The translations under genes were made by a program, and so were the position numbers. The notes under the pieces are model-generated. The model did not search any database and was not told where the DNA came from. It was given only the letters and a program-made list of their open reading frames with translations. Positions 5,652 through 64,000 of a stretch of 64,000 bases of DNA are shown here, in pieces. Origin of the DNA: Bergeyella cardium (lineage in GTDB: Bacteria; Bacteroidota; Bacteroidia; Flavobacteriales; Weeksellaceae); NCBI RefSeq assembly GCF_003614945.1, contig NZ_QYCZ01000001.1, positions 1,754,001-1,818,000 of the forward strand. Direction: 5' to 3'. Positions within the stretch are counted from its first letter, which is position 1, and each line of letters opens with the position of its first letter.

Positions 5652-5957
5652 TCATACTTTGATTTCTACATCAACTCCGCTTGGAAGTTCAAGTTTCATC
5701 AACGCATCTACCGTTTTAGAAGATGAAGAGTAGATATCCATCAATCTCTTGTGTGCAGATAGCTGGAATTGCTCTCTTGACTTCTTATTTACGTGTGGAG
5801 ACCTCAACACAGTGAAGATTCTCTTATGCGTAGGCAATGGGATAGGTCCGTTTACAACCGCACCAGTAGCCTTTACTGTTTTTACGATTCTTTCAGCAGA
5901 TTTATCCACCAGATTGTAATCGTAAGATTTAAGTTTTATTCTGATTCTTTGTGACAT
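5652..5957 (-). CDS. rpsJ: 30S ribosomal protein uS10
   Basis: 101 residues, standard length. The sequence shows the hallmark uS10 segments [15 protein letters not shown] at the start, [19 protein letters not shown] in the middle loop and [12 protein letters not shown] at the end. It is the last gene of the str operon, 18 bases after fusA, and is followed by a strong hairpin terminator. Besides its role in the 30S head, uS10 is NusE in antitermination complexes. In many bacteria rpsJ begins the S10 operon; here it is detached from it. Confidence 0.98.
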
Positions 5958-5975
5958 TTTAATCTAATTTTAAAA

Positions 5976-23244: not shown

Positions 23245-23344
23245 ATTTCATAGTGATGATTTTTTTTTTCATCACTATGTTTTTGGAATTTCATCACTAT
23301 GTTTTCCTAATTTCATAGTGATGAAATTTTTTTTCATCACTATG
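23245..23344. repeat. Five alternating CATAGTGATGA palindromic units
   Basis: The 11-mer CATAGTGATGA occurs at 23249 and 23314 in plus orientation and as TCATCACTATG at 23269, 23291 and 23334. Centres are spaced 20, 22, 23 and 20 bases. Each sits in a 16-base frame TTTCAT-NNNN-ATGNNN and neighbouring T-runs follow, so several alternative hairpins with U-tracts can form on both strands. The 350-base gap 23088-23437 between nosY and the ABC-F gene holds only this array and the terminator before it. Confidence 0.75.
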
Positions 23345-23437
23345 TTTTTTCGATTGGATACTGATGCTATTTTTTTCCTATTGGCATAAAGAAAAATCAT
23401 CGACTGATGGGTGGTAATCTTTTATTCTTTATTCGTC

Positions 23438-25423: not shown

Positions 25424-26779
25424 ATGAAAAAATGGGCAGAGCGCATAAGGGCAAAACTCAAATATTACTTTGACAGAAACTATAACGACAAGCTAAAGAA
25501 ATCTGTACTACAGGCAATACCTTTCTGGGTAGGCTCAGTCATCACAGGGATTTTAGCGGTATTCTATGCAAAAGCATTCCATTGGGCAGAGGATTTTCTA
25601 AAAATGATTCTCGGCATTCATCCCCTCCTGATATTTATCCTTACGCCCGTGTGCTTCGTTGCCTCGTGGTGGCTCATTAAGCGCTTCTCTCCCTATGCAA
25701 AAGGCAGTGGCATTCCGCAGGTAATGGCATCCATAGACCTCGCCACACCTGCCAATGGTAAAAAGGTACACCGACTGCTCAACATCAAAGTTCTCATCAT
25801 TAAAATCCTCTCGTCTATGCTAATGGTAATGGGTGGAGGTATCGTTGGGCGTGAAGGTCCTACCATTCAGATTGCAGGCTCCGTATTCACCACTATTAAT
25901 AAATACTTGCCCAAATGGTGGGTAAAAATCTCTGAAAGAAATATGATTATGACGGGTGCTGCCGCAGGGCTATCCGCAGCGTTTAATACACCCTTGGGAG
26001 GAATCGTCTTCGCTATTGAAGAGCTTGCCAAAACCCATATTAAGTACTTTAAAACCGCTCTCTTCACAGCGGTAATCATTGCTGGGCTCACCTCTCAAAC
26101 CCTCGCAGGGAGCTATCTCTACCTCGGCTATCCTAAGACGCAAAACATTACCCTTTTCGTAATGCTACCTGTCATTCTCGTTTCTGGGATTTCAGGGCTC
26201 CTCGCCAGCCAGTTCTCTATCTACATCCTCAAACTCAGCCGATGGAAAGAAGACAAACTTAAAAGCACCCGCTCAAACATCCTCTTTCTCATCCTTTCTG
26301 CTCTTGTGATTGCCTCTATATCTTATTTTCTCAGCTCAGATATATTAGGCTCGGGTAAAGGTCTGATAGAAGATGTTCTCTTCTCCGAACAGAAACAAAA
26401 AGCCTGGTACACCCCTTTTATACGAATGATAGGCTGTGCTCTTTCCTTCACTTCTGGTGCTGCAGGGGGGATATTTGCTCCTGCCCTCAGTATCGGTGCA
26501 AGCATAGGTGCGGTATTCTCTGACCTTATCCACCTCTCTCCTGCCGAAACCAATGTGGTGATACTCTCTGGGATGGTCGCTTTCCTCACGGGGATTACCC
26601 GTGCACCCTTTACCTCTGCCATTATCGTATTGGAGATGACCGACAGGCATTCCCTCATCTTCCATCTGATGCTCGCAGGAATTATCTCCTCTGTAGTCTC
26701 CCTACTCATTAGCCGACACTCCCTCTACGAATACATAAAAATGGGGTTTATAAAAAAGGCAATAAGCAATAAGCAGTAG
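25424..26779 (+). CDS. ClC-family chloride channel or H+/Cl- antiporter
   Basis: 451 residues from MKKWAERIRAK, with about ten membrane segments. ClC signatures are intact: GSGIPQ (anion site), GREGPTIQIAG including the gating glutamate, and GGIFAPALSIGASIG. No C-terminal CBS domains are present, as in the short bacterial form. It moves chloride across the inner membrane, probably coupled to protons. The last residues (AISNKQ) and the stop codon are encoded inside a 7-base repeat array, so the repeat appears to have formed the present gene end. Confidence 0.93.
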   Translation: MKKWAERIRAKLKYYFDRNYNDKLKKSVLQAIPFWVGSVITGILAVFYAKAFHWAEDFLKMILGIHPLLIFILTPVCFVASWWLIKRFSPYAKGSGIPQVMASIDLATPANGKKVHRLLNIKVLIIKILSSMLMVMGGGIVGREGPTIQIAGSVFTTINKYLPKWWVKISERNMIMTGAAAGLSAAFNTPLGGIVFAIEELAKTHIKYFKTALFTAVIIAGLTSQTLAGSYLYLGYPKTQNITLFVMLPVILVSGISGLLASQFSIYILKLSRWKEDKLKSTRSNILFLILSALVIASISYFLSSDILGSGKGLIEDVLFSEQKQKAWYTPFIRMIGCALSFTSGAAGGIFAPALSIGASIGAVFSDLIHLSPAETNVVILSGMVAFLTGITRAPFTSAIIVLEMTDRHSLIFHLMLAGIISSVVSLLISRHSLYEYIKMGFIKKAISNKQ

Positions 26780-26786
26780 GCTGTGG
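26759..26786 (+). repeat. Heptad array H2 at the ClC gene end
   Basis: GC occurs at 26759, 26766, 26773 and 26780 (units GCAATAA, GCAATAA, GCAGTAG, GCTGTGG). It overlaps the final codons and the TAG stop (26777-26779) of the ClC gene. Confidence 0.7.
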
Positions 26787-26812
26787 GGGGGGGAAGTTTG
26801 TGGTAAGTGCCT

Positions 26813-26826
26813 CACCCGCTAAGGTG
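26813..26826. repeat. GCTA-loop hairpin
   Basis: CACCCGCTAAGGTG, stem CACC/GGTG. Preceded by GTGCCT. Closely related to CACCGGCTACGGTG at 27081. Confidence 0.55.
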
Positions 26827-26870
26827 TGCTCTCAAGTTGTTGTAGGATAGCACCTCCCTCAATAGGGAGT

Positions 26871-26980
26871 CTATTACGAGCGTAATAGAGTGTCTATCCT
26901 TACCGTAATAGAGTGTCTATTACGAGCGTAATAGGATGTCTATTCTTATAATGATAGATAGTCTATCCTTCTCAAGATAG
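26871..26980. repeat. Five tandem 18-base palindromes with exact 23-base period
   Basis: Units begin at 26871, 26894, 26917, 26940 and 26963. Each has the form CTAT-N10-ATAG; the first and third are the perfect palindrome CTATTACGAGCGTAATAG and the others are degenerate. Five-base spacers (AGTGT, AGTGT, GATGT, ATAGT) separate them. A further hairpin CTCCCTCAATAGGGAG at 26854-26869 precedes the array. Confidence 0.85.
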
Positions 26981-26999
26981 AAAGCGCTTATAATAAGAG

Positions 27000-27048
27000 G
27001 CTGATAGCAGTTGGCTCTTGGCTGCTGGCTTTTGGCTGTTAGCTTAAT
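27000..27048 (+). repeat. Heptad array H3, (GCNNNNN)7
   Basis: GC at 27000, 27007, 27014, 27021, 27028, 27035 and 27042 without a phase break; units include GCTCTTG, GCTGCTG and GCTTTTG. Confidence 0.75.
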
Positions 27049-27080
27049 GGGTGCGTGGTTATCTTGTCCTAAGTGTGCCC

Positions 27081-27094
27081 CACCGGCTACGGTG
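27081..27094. repeat. GCTA-loop hairpin
   Basis: CACCGGCTACGGTG, a perfect five-base stem with loop GCTA, preceded by GTGCCC. Same family as 26813-26826. Confidence 0.6.
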
Positions 27095-27112
27095 TATTTA
27101 TTTTTAAAACCT

Positions 27113-27120
27113 TACTTTTG
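27113..27120 (+). promoter_or_regulatory. -7 element before the DUF2723 gene
   Basis: TACTTTTG (TAnnTTTG), 26 bases before the ATG at 27147. The -33 box is not evident. Confidence 0.5.
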
Positions 27121-27146
27121 GGGGCGAAAAAAGATTTTGTTGTTTT

Positions 27147-30100
27147 ATGGATAACCAAACTTTCAAAAAGTGGAATACGATTACAGGGTGGGTAGTTTTT
27201 GGAATTTCCCTCCTTACTTATCTCTCTACGATAGAGCCTAATTTCAGCTTTTGGGACTGTGGGGAGTATATTTCCTCAGCAGTGAAACTCGAAGTAACCC
27301 ACGCCCCTGGTGCCGCACTCTTTCAGTTGGTAGGTGCAGTGATGGGGATATTTGCATTGGGGAATGGGGAGTATTATTCATTGGTTATTAATGCAACTTC
27401 AGCACTGTTTAGTGCTTTTACGATACTCTTCCTGTTTTGGACGATTACCCATTTGGTGAGGAATATCTTTATCAAATCTAATGGCGAAGCGACTGAAAGC
27501 AGCGATATCGCTGTGCTTTTTGCAGGAGTTATCGGAGCACTGAGCTTTACCTTTTCAGATACCTTTTGGTTTTCGGCAGTGGAGGGCGAGGTCTATGCTA
27601 TGGCATCAATGTTTATCGCATTACTGCTGTGGCTCATCGTAAAATGGGAGCGGGAGTTTGATACCCCACACCATCAGCGGTGGCTGATACTTATCTCTTT
27701 TATCATAGGGCTTTCGGTAGGGGTACATATGATGTGTATGCTGGCAATACCTGCGATATGCCTTATATTTTATGCTAAGAAATATGAATTTAGCTGGAAG
27801 TCTTTCCTCATCGCAAATGGGGTTACGCTATTGATATTAGCCCTTGTCTTTAAGTTTATATTCCCATTGATTATGTCTTTATTTGGGAAGACGGAAATCT
27901 TTGCAGTCAATGGCTTGGGACTGCCTTTCAACTCGGGAACAGCGATTGCCTTTATTATCTTGGTGATGCTTTGCCTTATTGGATTAAAGGTTGCCATCCA
28001 ATCAAAGAAAAGCCTGAACCAAACGATAGCACTCTCGGTTATCTTTATGATTATCGGTTTCTTGTGCTGGCTGGTCATCCCCATCAGAGCGAATGCTAAC
28101 CCACCAATGAACCTCAACAACCCCAATACTGCTATTGGGATGCTGGACTATTACAACCGTGAGCAATACGGCGACTGGCCTACGATATACGGACAAAACT
28201 ACACCGCACAGCTCGATAACTACGGCATAGAACGAAACGATGACGGAAGCTATAAAACCGTAAAAGATGATGGACTCTTGAAGTTTGGAGATGTCTATGA
28301 GCCCGACTATACCACAGGCGAGTACCGAAAGGTAGGCGAGCGGTTTAATTATGTATATGCTAAAGCCCACACCAGCTTTATGCCCCGTATGTTTAATGAA
28401 AGTGATGATGTAATGAGTAACTACATCTCTATGTACGGAGCTCCTGATTTTGAATTTAATTTTGATAATCCTTATATAACAGAAAGCCCGGAGGCAGAAC
28501 AGGCATTTGATGAGCTTAGAGCAAAATACGAAGATGGGAGCATAACCCTTGATGACTATCTGGAAGTAAAGAAATATAATCTTATTAAGGTAAAAAAGCC
28601 TTCCTTCTGGCAGAACTTCGATTACTTTATCAGCTTTCAGAATGGGTATTATAACTTTCGATATCTTTTGTGGAACTTCGCAGGAAGGCAGAATGATTTA
28701 GAAGGGCATATGGAAAACACCAAAGGAAACTGGATTTCGGGCTTCTCTTTCATTGATAATCTTCTGCTGGGCAACCAAGAGGATATGCCAAAGATGTACT
28801 CTAATGAGAGTACCGTGAAATTCTACTTCCTACCGCTTATCTTAGGATTTATAGGCTTCTATTTCCAAGTGAAAAGAGACTTCGGGAGGTTCTACGCCCT
28901 ACTCTCACTCTTCGTACTAACAAGTGTGGGGATTATCTTCTACACAGGAGTAAAACCCTTTGAACCGAGAGAGAGAGACTATGCAATGGTAGGCTCTTTC
29001 TACGCCTTTGCAATTTGGATAGGTCTGGGAGCTGGGGCTATTTTAAACCTTATCCAGAGGAAGTTTAATAAGAACTCATCCGTCATTTTAACGGGTGTGG
29101 TACTGCTCTTTATCCCAATGATGATGGGCTTCCAGAACTATACGCCACACGACAGAAGCAAAAGATATGCAGCGTATGACTATGCCTATTCGGTATTAAA
29201 ATCATTGAATAAAGACAACATTATTTTTGTCTATGGAGATAATGATACCTACCCACTTTGGGCTATACAAGAAACCGAAGGCTTCCGAGATGATGTAAAG
29301 GTGGTTAATTTCACCCTTGCGCAGACCCCTTGGTACCTTGACCAGATTAAAAGGCGAACCTATAACTCAATGCCAGTGCCTTCGTCATTAAAGCACGAGG
29401 ATTACAGAGACGGGACAAATGACCAGATTCTGGTTTTCTCAAAAGAAAGATGGAAAAACTTCTTCGACAACCTTGAAGAAAATGGCTTCCACAAAGATGC
29501 TTTCCCAAGTCTTAGAAAATATGCTACGATGGATTCTATCTCGGTGAAAGATGCCTTGAGATTCCTCAAAATTAAATCTGCGGAGAAAGACGAGATACTT
29601 AAATTCTACTTTGGAGATACCAGATACGAGAGATTTAACTTCATCCCTTGTAATAAAATGTACATTCCTGTAAATAAATCAAACGCGATAAAGGCAGGAA
29701 TCATTCGCAAGGAAGATTTGCCCAATACAGTGGATAATCTTGTGATTACCTACAAGCCACAAACGATGTTTAAAAACGGACTTATGCTGATGGATATCCT
29801 CGCTCATTTTGACTGGAAACGAACGATTAATTTCTCCTCTGGAGGGATTTATGAAGATGAAAATATCTTCTTCTTAAATGATTACTTACAGTTCGATGGC
29901 TTCTCCTATCGCCTCGTACCGATACAAACAAAGGAAAAGGAGTCTGGCGAGATGGGAAGAGTAGTGGCAGACGACCTCTACCGCATTGTGAAGAACTATC
30001 GCTGGGGGAATTTCAAGGATTTGAGTGTGCATTTTGATGAAACCTGTACCTCCAACATCGTAAGCTACAGGAGCTCTGCCAGCCGGGCTGCCGATGCACT

Positions 30101-32250: not shown

Positions 32251-32254
32251 TATT

Positions 32255-32401
32255 CATTAAATAAAATCAATTAGATTTGAAAGATTTTGGGGTATGCATT
32301 AAATAAAAATCATTAGAAGAAAAGTATTTTGCTATATTTATTGAAGAAAATTCATTAGACGCGATAGACAATACGAGATTCATTAAGTAAAATCAATTAA
32401 A
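32255..32401 (+). repeat. Four 21-base units with exact 42-base period upstream of kdsA
   Basis: Units start at 32255, 32297, 32339 and 32381 and share the form YATTRARKAAAAT followed by YMATTARA; each is preceded by ATT or a variant. The 21 bases between units are mostly non-repetitive. A degenerate fifth unit may begin at 32213. The last unit ends 12 bases before the kdsA ATG. Confidence 0.65.
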
Positions 32402-53164: not shown

Positions 53165-53410
53165 GGTTTCTATTTCTTTTTTATCATTTGAAGTATTTAA
53201 TCCATCGCTGATTTTATTGCTCATTCTTGAGCTTACTCGTTATCTAAGTTTAATAGGCTGGCTTAGCTAATGAGTATCGCTCGGGTGGGCGAGATACCTT
53301 CGCCCGAGAGAGCGAGATACCTTCGCCCGAGTGGGCGAGGTCGTCTCGCTTTTCTAATCGCCCAAAGAGGATAGCAATATACAATTTAACAACTCTATCA
53401 TAGCGAGTTA
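53165..53410. repeat. Dispersed element, copy A (246 bases)
   Basis: Collinear with 62161-62480: shared GGTTTCTATTT, CATCGCTGA, CATTCTT, GGCTAAT-type block, the hairpin array, TCGCTTTTC and TTA ends. Copy A has three hairpin units, copy B six, which accounts for 69 of the 74-base length difference. Confidence 0.7.
53277..53361. repeat. Three tandem hairpins, 23-base period (TCGCCC family)
   Basis: TCGCTCGGGTGGGCGA at 53277, TCGCCCGAGAGAGCGA at 53300, TCGCCCGAGTGGGCGA at 53323, then a degenerate TCGCTTTTCTAATCGC at 53346. Steps are exactly 23 bases. The third is a perfect stem TCGCCC/GGGCGA. Confidence 0.85.
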
Positions 53411-62002: not shown

Positions 62003-62024
62003 GCGCACTTACCACAAACTAACC

Positions 62025-62073
62025 GCGCACCGCCAATAGCTAAAAGCCAATAGCTATTTGCCATCTGCTAAAA
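62025..62073 (+). repeat. Heptad array H7, (GCNNNNN)7
   Basis: GC at 62025, 62032, 62039, 62046, 62053, 62060 and 62067. It is preceded by ACAAACTAACCGCGCACCGC, nearly identical to the start of the second half of H5. Confidence 0.8.
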
Positions 62074-62078
62074 AGAAG

Positions 62079-62104
62079 TACGGCACCCCAAATGGGGTGC
62101 CGTA
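62079..62104. terminator. Perfect hairpin, possible minus-strand terminator
   Basis: TACGGCACCCC-AAAT-GGGGTGCCGTA, an 11-base perfect stem. On the minus strand CTTCTTTTTAG follows, so it may end transcripts coming from the 62491-63207 gene after crossing the repeat array. Confidence 0.6.
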
Positions 62105-62160
62105 CAAATAAATACTAACAATTATAAAAACGCATTATGCACACAAGTGATAAAGTGCAA

Positions 62161-62480
62161 GGTTTCTATTTTCTTTCTTATCAGCTAATGGCTTTAAAAT
62201 TCATCGCTGAGTTTATTATTCATTCTTAAAGCTTATTTATTGTTTAGGTTTAATGGGATATCTTGGCTAATTTCTATCGCCTGAGTAGGCGAGACACTAT
62301 CGCCCGAGAGAGCGAGTCACCTTCGCCCGAGAGAGCGAGTCACCTTCGCCCGAGAGAGCGAGTCACCTTCGCCCGAGAGAGCGAGACACTATCGCCCGAG
62401 AGAGCGAGTCACCTTCGCTTTTCCAATTGTCCCAAAAAAACATTAATATATGATTTAAATAGCATTATAATAGATAGTTA
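62161..62480. repeat. Dispersed element, copy B (320 bases)
   Basis: Homologous along its length to 53165-53410 (same order of shared blocks on both sides of the hairpin array). It holds six rather than three hairpin units. Confidence 0.7.
62277..62430. repeat. Six tandem hairpins with exact 23-base period
   Basis: Units at 62277, 62300, 62323, 62346, 62369 and 62392, then a degenerate TCGCTTTTCCAATTGT at 62415. The first, TCGCCTGAGTAGGCGA, is a perfect stem with a compensatory pair; the others are TCGCCCGAGAGAGCGA with one internal mismatch. Spacers alternate between GACACTA and GTCACCT. Confidence 0.9.
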
Positions 62481-62490
62481 AGTAGATTAA

Positions 62491-63207
62491 TCAGGCAATA
62501 ACTACGGGTGTATTAAGCACCTCAGTTCTTGGGGTTTTTAGAAAGACTTTCGAGGTATTGCTAAACTGCGTTGTGATGCTCAGCTCGTAGTTGCCTGCGG
62601 GGAGGCTGGCGGGGATAAGCACCAAAAGACGAGCGGGCTCATTAATCACGATGTCCTCGAGTTTTGTCTTGGCCTTGGTGTCTATATTCGTGAGATAGAC
62701 ACCATTATCTGTGTGGGTGCCTGCAACCTTGATGTAAGAACCTTTTACCTCTGCATTCTTGCCTTTGGTAAGGGTACCATCGGTTTTGCCTGTGCTGAGG
62801 TCGGTAATACCGAAGATTGCCATTGGGCTAGATTGCTCTCCAAGGAATTCTACTTTGGTTTGGGAGATGGCTTTCCTTAGCTCTGCGCCTTGATTAACAT
62901 TTACATAGACGCTGTGCTTGTCCTTATCCCAGACTTTGTCTTTAAAGACACCTTTTATCGCTGGGCGCATAATGACGAGGCCGGTATTGACTACATAGCC
63001 TTGGAGCACGAGCTCTGTGCTCTTGCGATTGAAGCGGGAGATGATGTCTATTGCCGTCTCCTCTTTTATCTCCATACCTTCTTTTTTGAGCTCTGCTACA
63101 ATCTCTGCTACGCTTACGCTCCCTACGCTTGCGGGTACACCTACAAAATCTGATGGGTCGCTGGTAAGAGGGTTATCTCTTAGCCACGCTTTTAAAGTAT
63201 TTTTCAT
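62491..63207 (-). CDS. HU-like-domain protein with C-terminal DUF4469-like domain
   Basis: 238 residues, no signal peptide. Residues about 1-125 resemble the HU-like DNA-binding domain of Bacteroidota (SVAEIVAELKKEGMEIKEET, FNRKSTELVLQGYVVNTGLV). The C-terminal about 110 residues form a beta domain (PARLLVLIPASLPAGNYELS) resembling DUF4469 or an Ig-like fold. The role is unknown. It lies after the FISUMP-domain gene with a terminator between them, and its transcript would run into the hairpin array downstream. Confidence 0.7.
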   Translation of the reverse strand: MKNTLKAWLRDNPLTSDPSDFVGVPASVGSVSVAEIVAELKKEGMEIKEETAIDIISRFNRKSTELVLQGYVVNTGLVIMRPAIKGVFKDKVWDKDKHSVYVNVNQGAELRKAISQTKVEFLGEQSSPMAIFGITDLSTGKTDGTLTKGKNAEVKGSYIKVAGTHTDNGVYLTNIDTKAKTKLEDIVINEPARLLVLIPASLPAGNYELSITTQFSNTSKVFLKTPRTEVLNTPVVIA

Positions 63208-63290: not shown

Positions 63291-64000
63291 TTAGTCTTTT
63301 ATGCAACGAACGGACATTTGAGATATTTTTTGCATAGTAATATTATTACCTACCCCTAATATTTGTCCTACAATTACACCACCTATAGATGCTGATGGAT
63401 CTAAAGCTTGTGGAACTTTAAATTGTGGGTTCCTATTTTCATATGAACTTGCTCGAATATAATATGCATCTTTAGAAGTATCTGGTGTTTTCGTCCATAA
63501 AAAACTCCATTGTTCCATCGAATTAGGAGTTGTACCAGAAGCTGTTCCAAGTCGAAGAATCTCTGTAAAAAAACTTCCTCTATAAGACTTTATATCTGTG
63601 AGTATACCTCCTCCTACAGTATTTAACTTCAACTGATGCATTTCTGGTTGTGTAGGGGTATGCCAACCACTTGGGCAAGGATCTGTATAACCAGAAACAT
63701 TAGCATTATACTCTGTCTGGTTATATCGTTTCCAAGCATCGGTAGTAGTACCTAAAGGAAAATCAGTCACAGAATTATATCTATAGACTCCGTTAGAGCC
63801 ACTCGGCGATGGACCTGAAAGGCTATTCGGCCAGTTAACTAACTCGTGGCCATCGGCTACCCTGCCCCATTGAAATGCAGAACCAAACATTCTGTAGTCC
63901 ATTAATGTATTAGGAGCTCGCATCTCATAAATCTGATCATATCCAAAGTCTGCTATACGGTTTGCATCGGCAGAATGCGCTCCAAGGTTCTTATCTAGCC
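63291..64000 (-). CDS. FISUMP-domain protein (5' end beyond window)
   Basis: The frame is open to 63998, so the start lies outside the window; about 235 C-terminal residues are visible. LDKNLGA, FQWGRVADGHE, DPCPSGWHTPTQPE and SQMSVRCIKD are the standard blocks of the Fibrobacter succinogenes major paralogous domain. Such proteins are usually exported and surface-located in Bacteroidota. The function is not known. An internal ATG at 63921-63923 is not the true start because the NLGA block lies before it. Confidence 0.85.
   Translation of the reverse strand, partial: LDKNLGAHSADANRIADFGYDQIYEMRAPNTLMDYRMFGSAFQWGRVADGHELVNWPNSLSGPSPSGSNGVYRYNSVTDFPLGTTTDAWKRYNQTEYNANVSGYTDPCPSGWHTPTQPEMHQLKLNTVGGGILTDIKSYRGSFFTEILRLGTASGTTPNSMEQWSFLWTKTPDTSKDAYYIRASSYENRNPQFKVPQALDPSASIGGVIVGQILGVGNNITMQKISQMSVRCIKD

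Follow-up and report, generated by a model that had tools for sequence, protein, structure and literature searches.

The intergenic array at positions 26871 to 26980 of the window (the whole stretch of 64,000 nucleotides analysed here, part of a 1.96 Mb genome in 3 contigs) raises the question of why palindromic units with different letters should be laid out in one genome at one and the same 23-base step. The units of this array, referred to as array A, start at 26871, 26894, 26917, 26940 and 26963 and carry the CTAT...ATAG arms in all five cases. The exact spacing described in the sequence-only reading is thus seen in the letters themselves, in the TRF output (period 23 over 26861-26944 and period 46 over 26861-26966) and in the lag-23 score of the intergenic region, which was matched by none of 2000 mononucleotide shuffles. 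Across the whole genome a two-unit CTAT pattern was found at 4 places, with 11 occurrences on each strand, and the reversed control pattern 0 times. The unit had been described as an 18-base palindrome followed by a 5-base spacer; its dyad symmetry is real, but it is uneven, with 4 to 8 pairs per unit out of 9 possible, and the supposed spacer, AGTGT, rather than N10 forms the centre of the elementary hairpin. The features of the window needed for the argument are:

26838 to 26870, plus strand: leader of array A (TTGTAGGATAGCACCTCCCTCAATAGGGAGT), resembling what immediately follows the HU stop codon at L043, the HU locus of the CTAT type.
26871 to 26980, minus strand: array A, five CTAT-N10-ATAG units of period 23, with the loop reading ACACY on the minus strand and RGTGT on the plus strand.
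53277 to 53339, plus strand: array B, in which the 23-bp element has TCGCCC-type units; the genes on either side diverge and there is no HU gene.
62016 to 62183, minus strand: cassette tail beyond array C, found at L043 with 96% identity and containing an inverted repeat with a T-run (GTACGGCACCCC...GGGGTGCCGTAC).
62274 to 62418, plus strand: array C, six TCGCCC-type units of period 23, 72 nt past the stop codon of the HU-DNA_bdg/DUF4469 gene.
62491 to 63207, minus strand: HU-DNA_bdg (PF14848)/DUF4469 (PF14734) gene encoding 238 aa, with the PDB relative 4fmr (E 7e-37); it belongs to a set of 5 strong paralogues in this genome.
63291 to 64000, minus strand: 3' part of a surface-protein gene (~715 aa) that runs off the window, with a C-terminal Fib_succ_major domain (FISUMP, lectin-like), hypervariable between paralogues.

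Placed in register, the unit reads arm(5)-loop(5)-arm(5)-linker(8), i.e. a 5-bp stem closed by the loop RGTGT/ACACY, adding up to 23. The loop ACACY is common to the CTAT, TCGCCC, CTCACA and GGAAG arrays, which also share part of the linker, and within a single array (L040 5821-5958) the arms change from CTAT to CTCACA inside the linker while the loop-centred hairpins remain intact. Among 27 distinct units the pair 2-14 occurs in all four Watson-Crick types (AU 13, CG 9, UA 3, GC 2), 31 double changes were counted against 11.6 in the control, and the covariation score was 0.67 as compared with 0.21 or less for slid partners. In the same set 98.5% of the cells are paired versus 75% after shuffling, an absolute percentage that is somewhat favoured because the units were picked in register, the slid controls being the fairer comparison. 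The CTAT and TCGCCC arrays are therefore one element, with double substitutions in the arms that compensate each other. The contrary claim, that array A is unlike the TCGCCC family, was mistaken, since loop and linker match and the arms differ by compensation at paralogous sites; the proposal of one system with a fixed 23-base spacing and changing letters is supported. The covariance model R1 retrieved 11 arrays genome-wide, 3 of them within the window. More general tests say less about individual arrays: whole-unit dyad permutation is a weak test in which about one quarter of the arrays are significant, likewise for folding energy, and the folding energies are mostly unexceptional. Whole units have been gained or lost between array copies. 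These 23-bp arrays have no unique spacers between repeats of the kind that would identify them as CRISPR. The CTAT sequence itself was found in only 2 other genomes among 296 relatives, probably by chance; one of these matches (G152) is a two-unit 23-nt repeat.

The genomic context links the element to a gene family. Each of the five strong PF14848 genes has a period-23 array behind it; the arms are TCGCCC-type in four cases and CTAT in one. Six of the 11 arrays, array C included, stand directly behind an HU-DNA_bdg/DUF4469 gene or its remnant (the latter at L042), and the other five, array A among them, lack such a gene. The HU-linked arrays of this genome start 27-74 nt past the stop codon with the RGTGT strand in sense, as does array C with respect to its adjoining gene. 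Arms differ at paralogous HU sites, while position, orientation and period of the array are kept. HU domains from TCGCCC loci and from CTAT loci share 97.6% identity, so the HU domain does not track the arm letters. Each HU gene of the genome is preceded by a surface-protein gene whose product measures ~715 aa, or 336 aa at L171, where the locus is shortened; at least one of these proteins has a Fib_succ_major domain. The right end of the cassette is a tail with a terminator-like inverted repeat. In the most similar pair of cassettes the N-terminal part of the adhesin gene is mostly 89-100% identical, identity falls mostly to 45-69% over its last ~700 nt and most of the HU gene is back at 89-100%; in other pairs identity falls just as sharply, and their N-terminal parts are less conserved. 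Conserved blocks flanking a hypervariable adhesin end suggest cassette exchange or gene conversion. The linkage between array and HU gene inside this genome is in part the duplication of one cassette. Array A departs from this arrangement: no HU gene lies beside it, its leader and units together match L043 9550-9676 at ~73% (blastn), and the neighbouring protein is 65-68% identical to its counterparts in Epilithonimonas, Chryseobacterium and Bergeyella. Array A may be a solitary copy, either a relic or a mobile copy without the HU gene. No intrinsic terminator was found within it, the terminator-like sites at 27005 and 27081 (scanned from 26700 to 27200) falling outside.

Comparison with other genera extends the linkage beyond this genome. 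Of 148 genomes sampled from the family (Weeksellaceae-like), 46 have PF14848 genes, with up to 13 copies each, and many of these genes are followed, 1-115 nt behind, by arrays of other letters with period 23 or 46. Arms include GGTCAA-GGGTGTG-TTGACC (G156, G135), TACTA-GGTGT-TAGTA (G122) and TGCAG-GGTGT-CTGCA (G102), and in G088 (L248) the unit CCGT-CCTTACCGTA-ACGG-GGTGT keeps the linker and loop of CTAT-CCTTACCGTA-ATAG-AGTGT with compensated arms. This cross-genus list of units was anchored on the RGTGT loop, whose enrichment without anchoring is moderate (26 versus 11.2 ± 3.1). A sequence-blind scan of the 160 nt behind each of 31 non-redundant HU genes, looking for three equally spaced dyads at periods 13 to 35, returned period 23 at 14 loci, any other period at no more than one, and ~0.1 in shuffles. 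The remaining 17 loci failed this strict dyad test, some of them having weaker arrays by eye. Ordinary intergenic regions of the relatives scored in 2 of 321 cases (Fisher p ~7e-15 against the HU loci), and a four-dyad version placed period 23 at 17 of 21 positive loci, some of which are redundant. In G077 and G088, all four places carrying one array sequence are HU loci, in one case displaced by 3.5 kb of inserted genes. The insertion in G077 (L242 3211-5360 to L278 ~1465) lies between the HU-gene terminator and the array and includes two D12-class DNA methyltransferases; L252 of G063 has an identical left junction, as if the boundary between HU terminator and array were an insertion site. 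CRISPR-like arrays with a period of 66 nt are also present 250-770 nt past the HU-DUF4469 stop at L240, L244 and L253 (in G077, G088 and G063).

A genome-wide preference for this spacing was the remaining expectation of the sequence-only reading, which held that a broad spread of periods would reduce the match at 23 to coincidence. The test of three equally spaced dyads in the own genome returned 21 hits at period 23, 12 at 21 and 11 at 22, against ~5.4 per other period. Direct reading of 858 kb (44% of the genome, sampled as stretches) gave intergenic tandem arrays with periods 21 (12), 22 (3) and 23 (11), most of the others being multiples (41-42, 63, 65, 84) or CRISPR of period 77. The preference for periods 21-23 is therefore real and 23 is its strongest component; arrays cluster instead of spreading broadly, although 23 is not the sole period. 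No arrays of period 20-24 were found in 400 kb from three relatives, and 371 kb from ten further relatives yielded two weak ones.

At the level of mechanism, our reading, a tentative one to which we give a probability of about 45%, is that the array would be recognised as DNA through its shape and its spacing. Most likely it would serve the HU-type protein as a site for docking or recombination while adhesin cassettes are shuffled. Array A is on this view a copy of a family-wide element in which tandem dyads are held at exactly 23 bp with the arm letters free provided that the arms pair, and which forms the 3' end of a multi-copy cassette running from a surface protein with a hypervariable lectin-like C-terminus through the HU-DNA_bdg/DUF4469 gene to the array. 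The HU-type protein encoded alongside would dock on the array by its shape and spacing rather than by its letters, and gene and array together would make up a common block helping recombination or gene conversion to swap variable adhesin ends. A published study describes HU proteins as favouring junctions, forks and bent DNA (PMC5683647), and a site defined by dyads and spacing would suit an HU-type protein for that reason. It is tempting to speculate further that the HU-type protein reads DNA only through the 23-bp dyad lattice behind its own gene, and that this would drive the exchange of lectin-like adhesin ends, and perhaps the entry of further genes, DNA methyltransferases for example, throughout the family; in this exclusive form the idea is improbable.

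On the other hand, the arrays could be functionless palindromic minisatellites, built and homogenised by hairpin template switching and slippage, with copying from arm to arm giving the covariation. Template switching is reported to create hairpins together with compensatory changes (PMC8794818), and the gain and loss of whole units between copies, the many different 21-23-nt families of this genome and the fold-back signatures at one array end in L040 and at L042 (an inverted unit) agree with such an origin. The L040 signature is a 19-bp inverted repeat with a 6-nt loop (AATGTGGCAATACCTCACA...TGTGAGGTATTGCCACATT) at 5915-5960. Nevertheless, this process does not account for a period of exactly 23 bp kept in different genera next to a single gene family, for loop and linker remaining constant while arms change, or for the near absence of such arrays from the random intergenic regions of relatives. 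Template-switch mutagenesis may build the units, but alone it leaves the exact 23 across genera unexplained, and as the whole account we regard it as rather unlikely.

A conserved loop with compensated stems is also typical of RNA, and the array could form part of the 3' region of the HU transcript, or be copied into an antisense RNA, its hairpins binding a protein or protecting the transcript. The HU-linked arrays of this genome lie where such an element might be expected, shortly past the stop with RGTGT in sense and ahead of a terminator-like tail hairpin. However, array B sits between divergent genes, Rfam gave no match in the window, and in G088, G077 and G061 a terminator-like hairpin separates the HU stop from the array. 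Moreover, G.T and A.C mismatches number 45 and 53, so that G.U-compatible mismatches are in excess on neither strand, an absence of strand bias expected of double-stranded DNA. The balanced mismatches and the terminator-like hairpin preceding the array in these three relatives favour the DNA-level reading, and an RNA element is in our view unlikely.

The closest published element is BrickBuilt of Porphyromonas gingivalis, a 23-nt minisatellite within a MITE that has a leader, a tail and 1-23 units in 19 intergenic copies (PMC4596501). It is predicted to form stem-loops, its unit number varies between strains and one copy lies beside an HU-type (PF00216) gene; it is also a single sequence family, bounded by IS5-like terminal inverted repeats of 12 bp and restricted to P. 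gingivalis and P. gulae, default BLASTn giving matches in P. gingivalis only and homologues being known in P. gulae (PMC4596501). Compared by description only, our 23-bp arrays may be the same kind of thing, being 23-nt tandem repeats that are intergenic, present in a similar number per genome and provided with leader and tail. They differ from it in that the letters vary from locus to locus and from genus to genus while the arms covary, and that arrays stand behind HU-DNA_bdg/DUF4469 genes. This precedent, together with 11 copies in the genome, some of them solitary with a common leader, is consistent with a minisatellite carried in a MITE-like element and moved by a transposase in trans; such an origin is nonetheless very unlikely, given that most copies are bound to a gene cassette, that a Y1 transposase is absent and that neither plasmids nor phages matched the array. 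Other routes were rejected: a RAYT/REP origin (Y1_Tnp PF01797, 0 matches in the own genome with 5 of 14 controls positive), a retroelement or DGR (reverse transcriptase PF00078, 0 matches in the genome) and loss of the hairpin nuclease SbcCD, as SbcD is present here (G000:C1:1506270-1507082) and was undetected in most sampled relatives. The copying machinery suggested at the outset is accordingly left without direct support, the genome having neither a reverse transcriptase nor a Y1/REP transposase.

Likenesses to other known systems are partial. Integron attC sites mark the 3' end of a gene cassette and are recognised by their folded shape with variable arm sequence; the arrays share with them the cassette 3' end and the variable arms, whereas attC sites are single long hairpins and ours are 23-bp arrays. 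The iterons of plasmid origins, direct repeats spanning about two helical turns, keep their sequence and are read by a protein whose gene lies alongside. The arrays resemble them in repeat length and in the protein gene alongside, by which they would presumably be read, and differ in changing their sequence and in being multi-copy and chromosomal. With REP/BIME and RAYT (Y1) systems they share intergenic palindromes, regular spacing and many copies, but here the Y1_Tnp gene is missing, the arm sequence is not conserved and there is a tie to a specific gene. In the literature we found no report of DUF4469 or of 21-23-nt palindromic arrays of this bacterial family. An element conserved in spacing and pairing rather than in letters is missed by ordinary similarity searches, and its tie to an HU-type gene and a hypervariable surface protein makes it possible to ask whether a nucleoid-type protein may possess a site of its own that is defined by shape, and by what route these adhesin families become diverse in the absence of a reverse transcriptase.

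The 21- and 22-nt arrays fall outside the HU-cassette explanation. A period-21 intergenic family with the core GGTYARARACC and changing arms, separate from the 23-nt element, occupies at least six places in the genome (L029 16308-16446, L031 8608-8713, L034 1940-2107, L138 5122-5189, L144 1027-1120 and L028 17656-17823). At L026 15989-16165 there are eight period-21 units in which TTGTCGGAAT is conserved, the rest is degenerate and dyad symmetry is absent. Another separate intergenic family, of period 22 (TTTCATCACTAYG / CATAGTGATGAAA), is found at 23267-23376 of the window and at L136 2875-2958, L130 4948-5040, L030 7686-7777 and L174 1210-1292, the last copy coming after a divergent HU-like gene. 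At 32251-32359 of the window, L029 7787-8067 and L038 2166-2449 there are intergenic arrays whose periods, 42 and 84, are multiples of 21, and the CRISPR array of period 77 in this genome spans L143 7274-8310.
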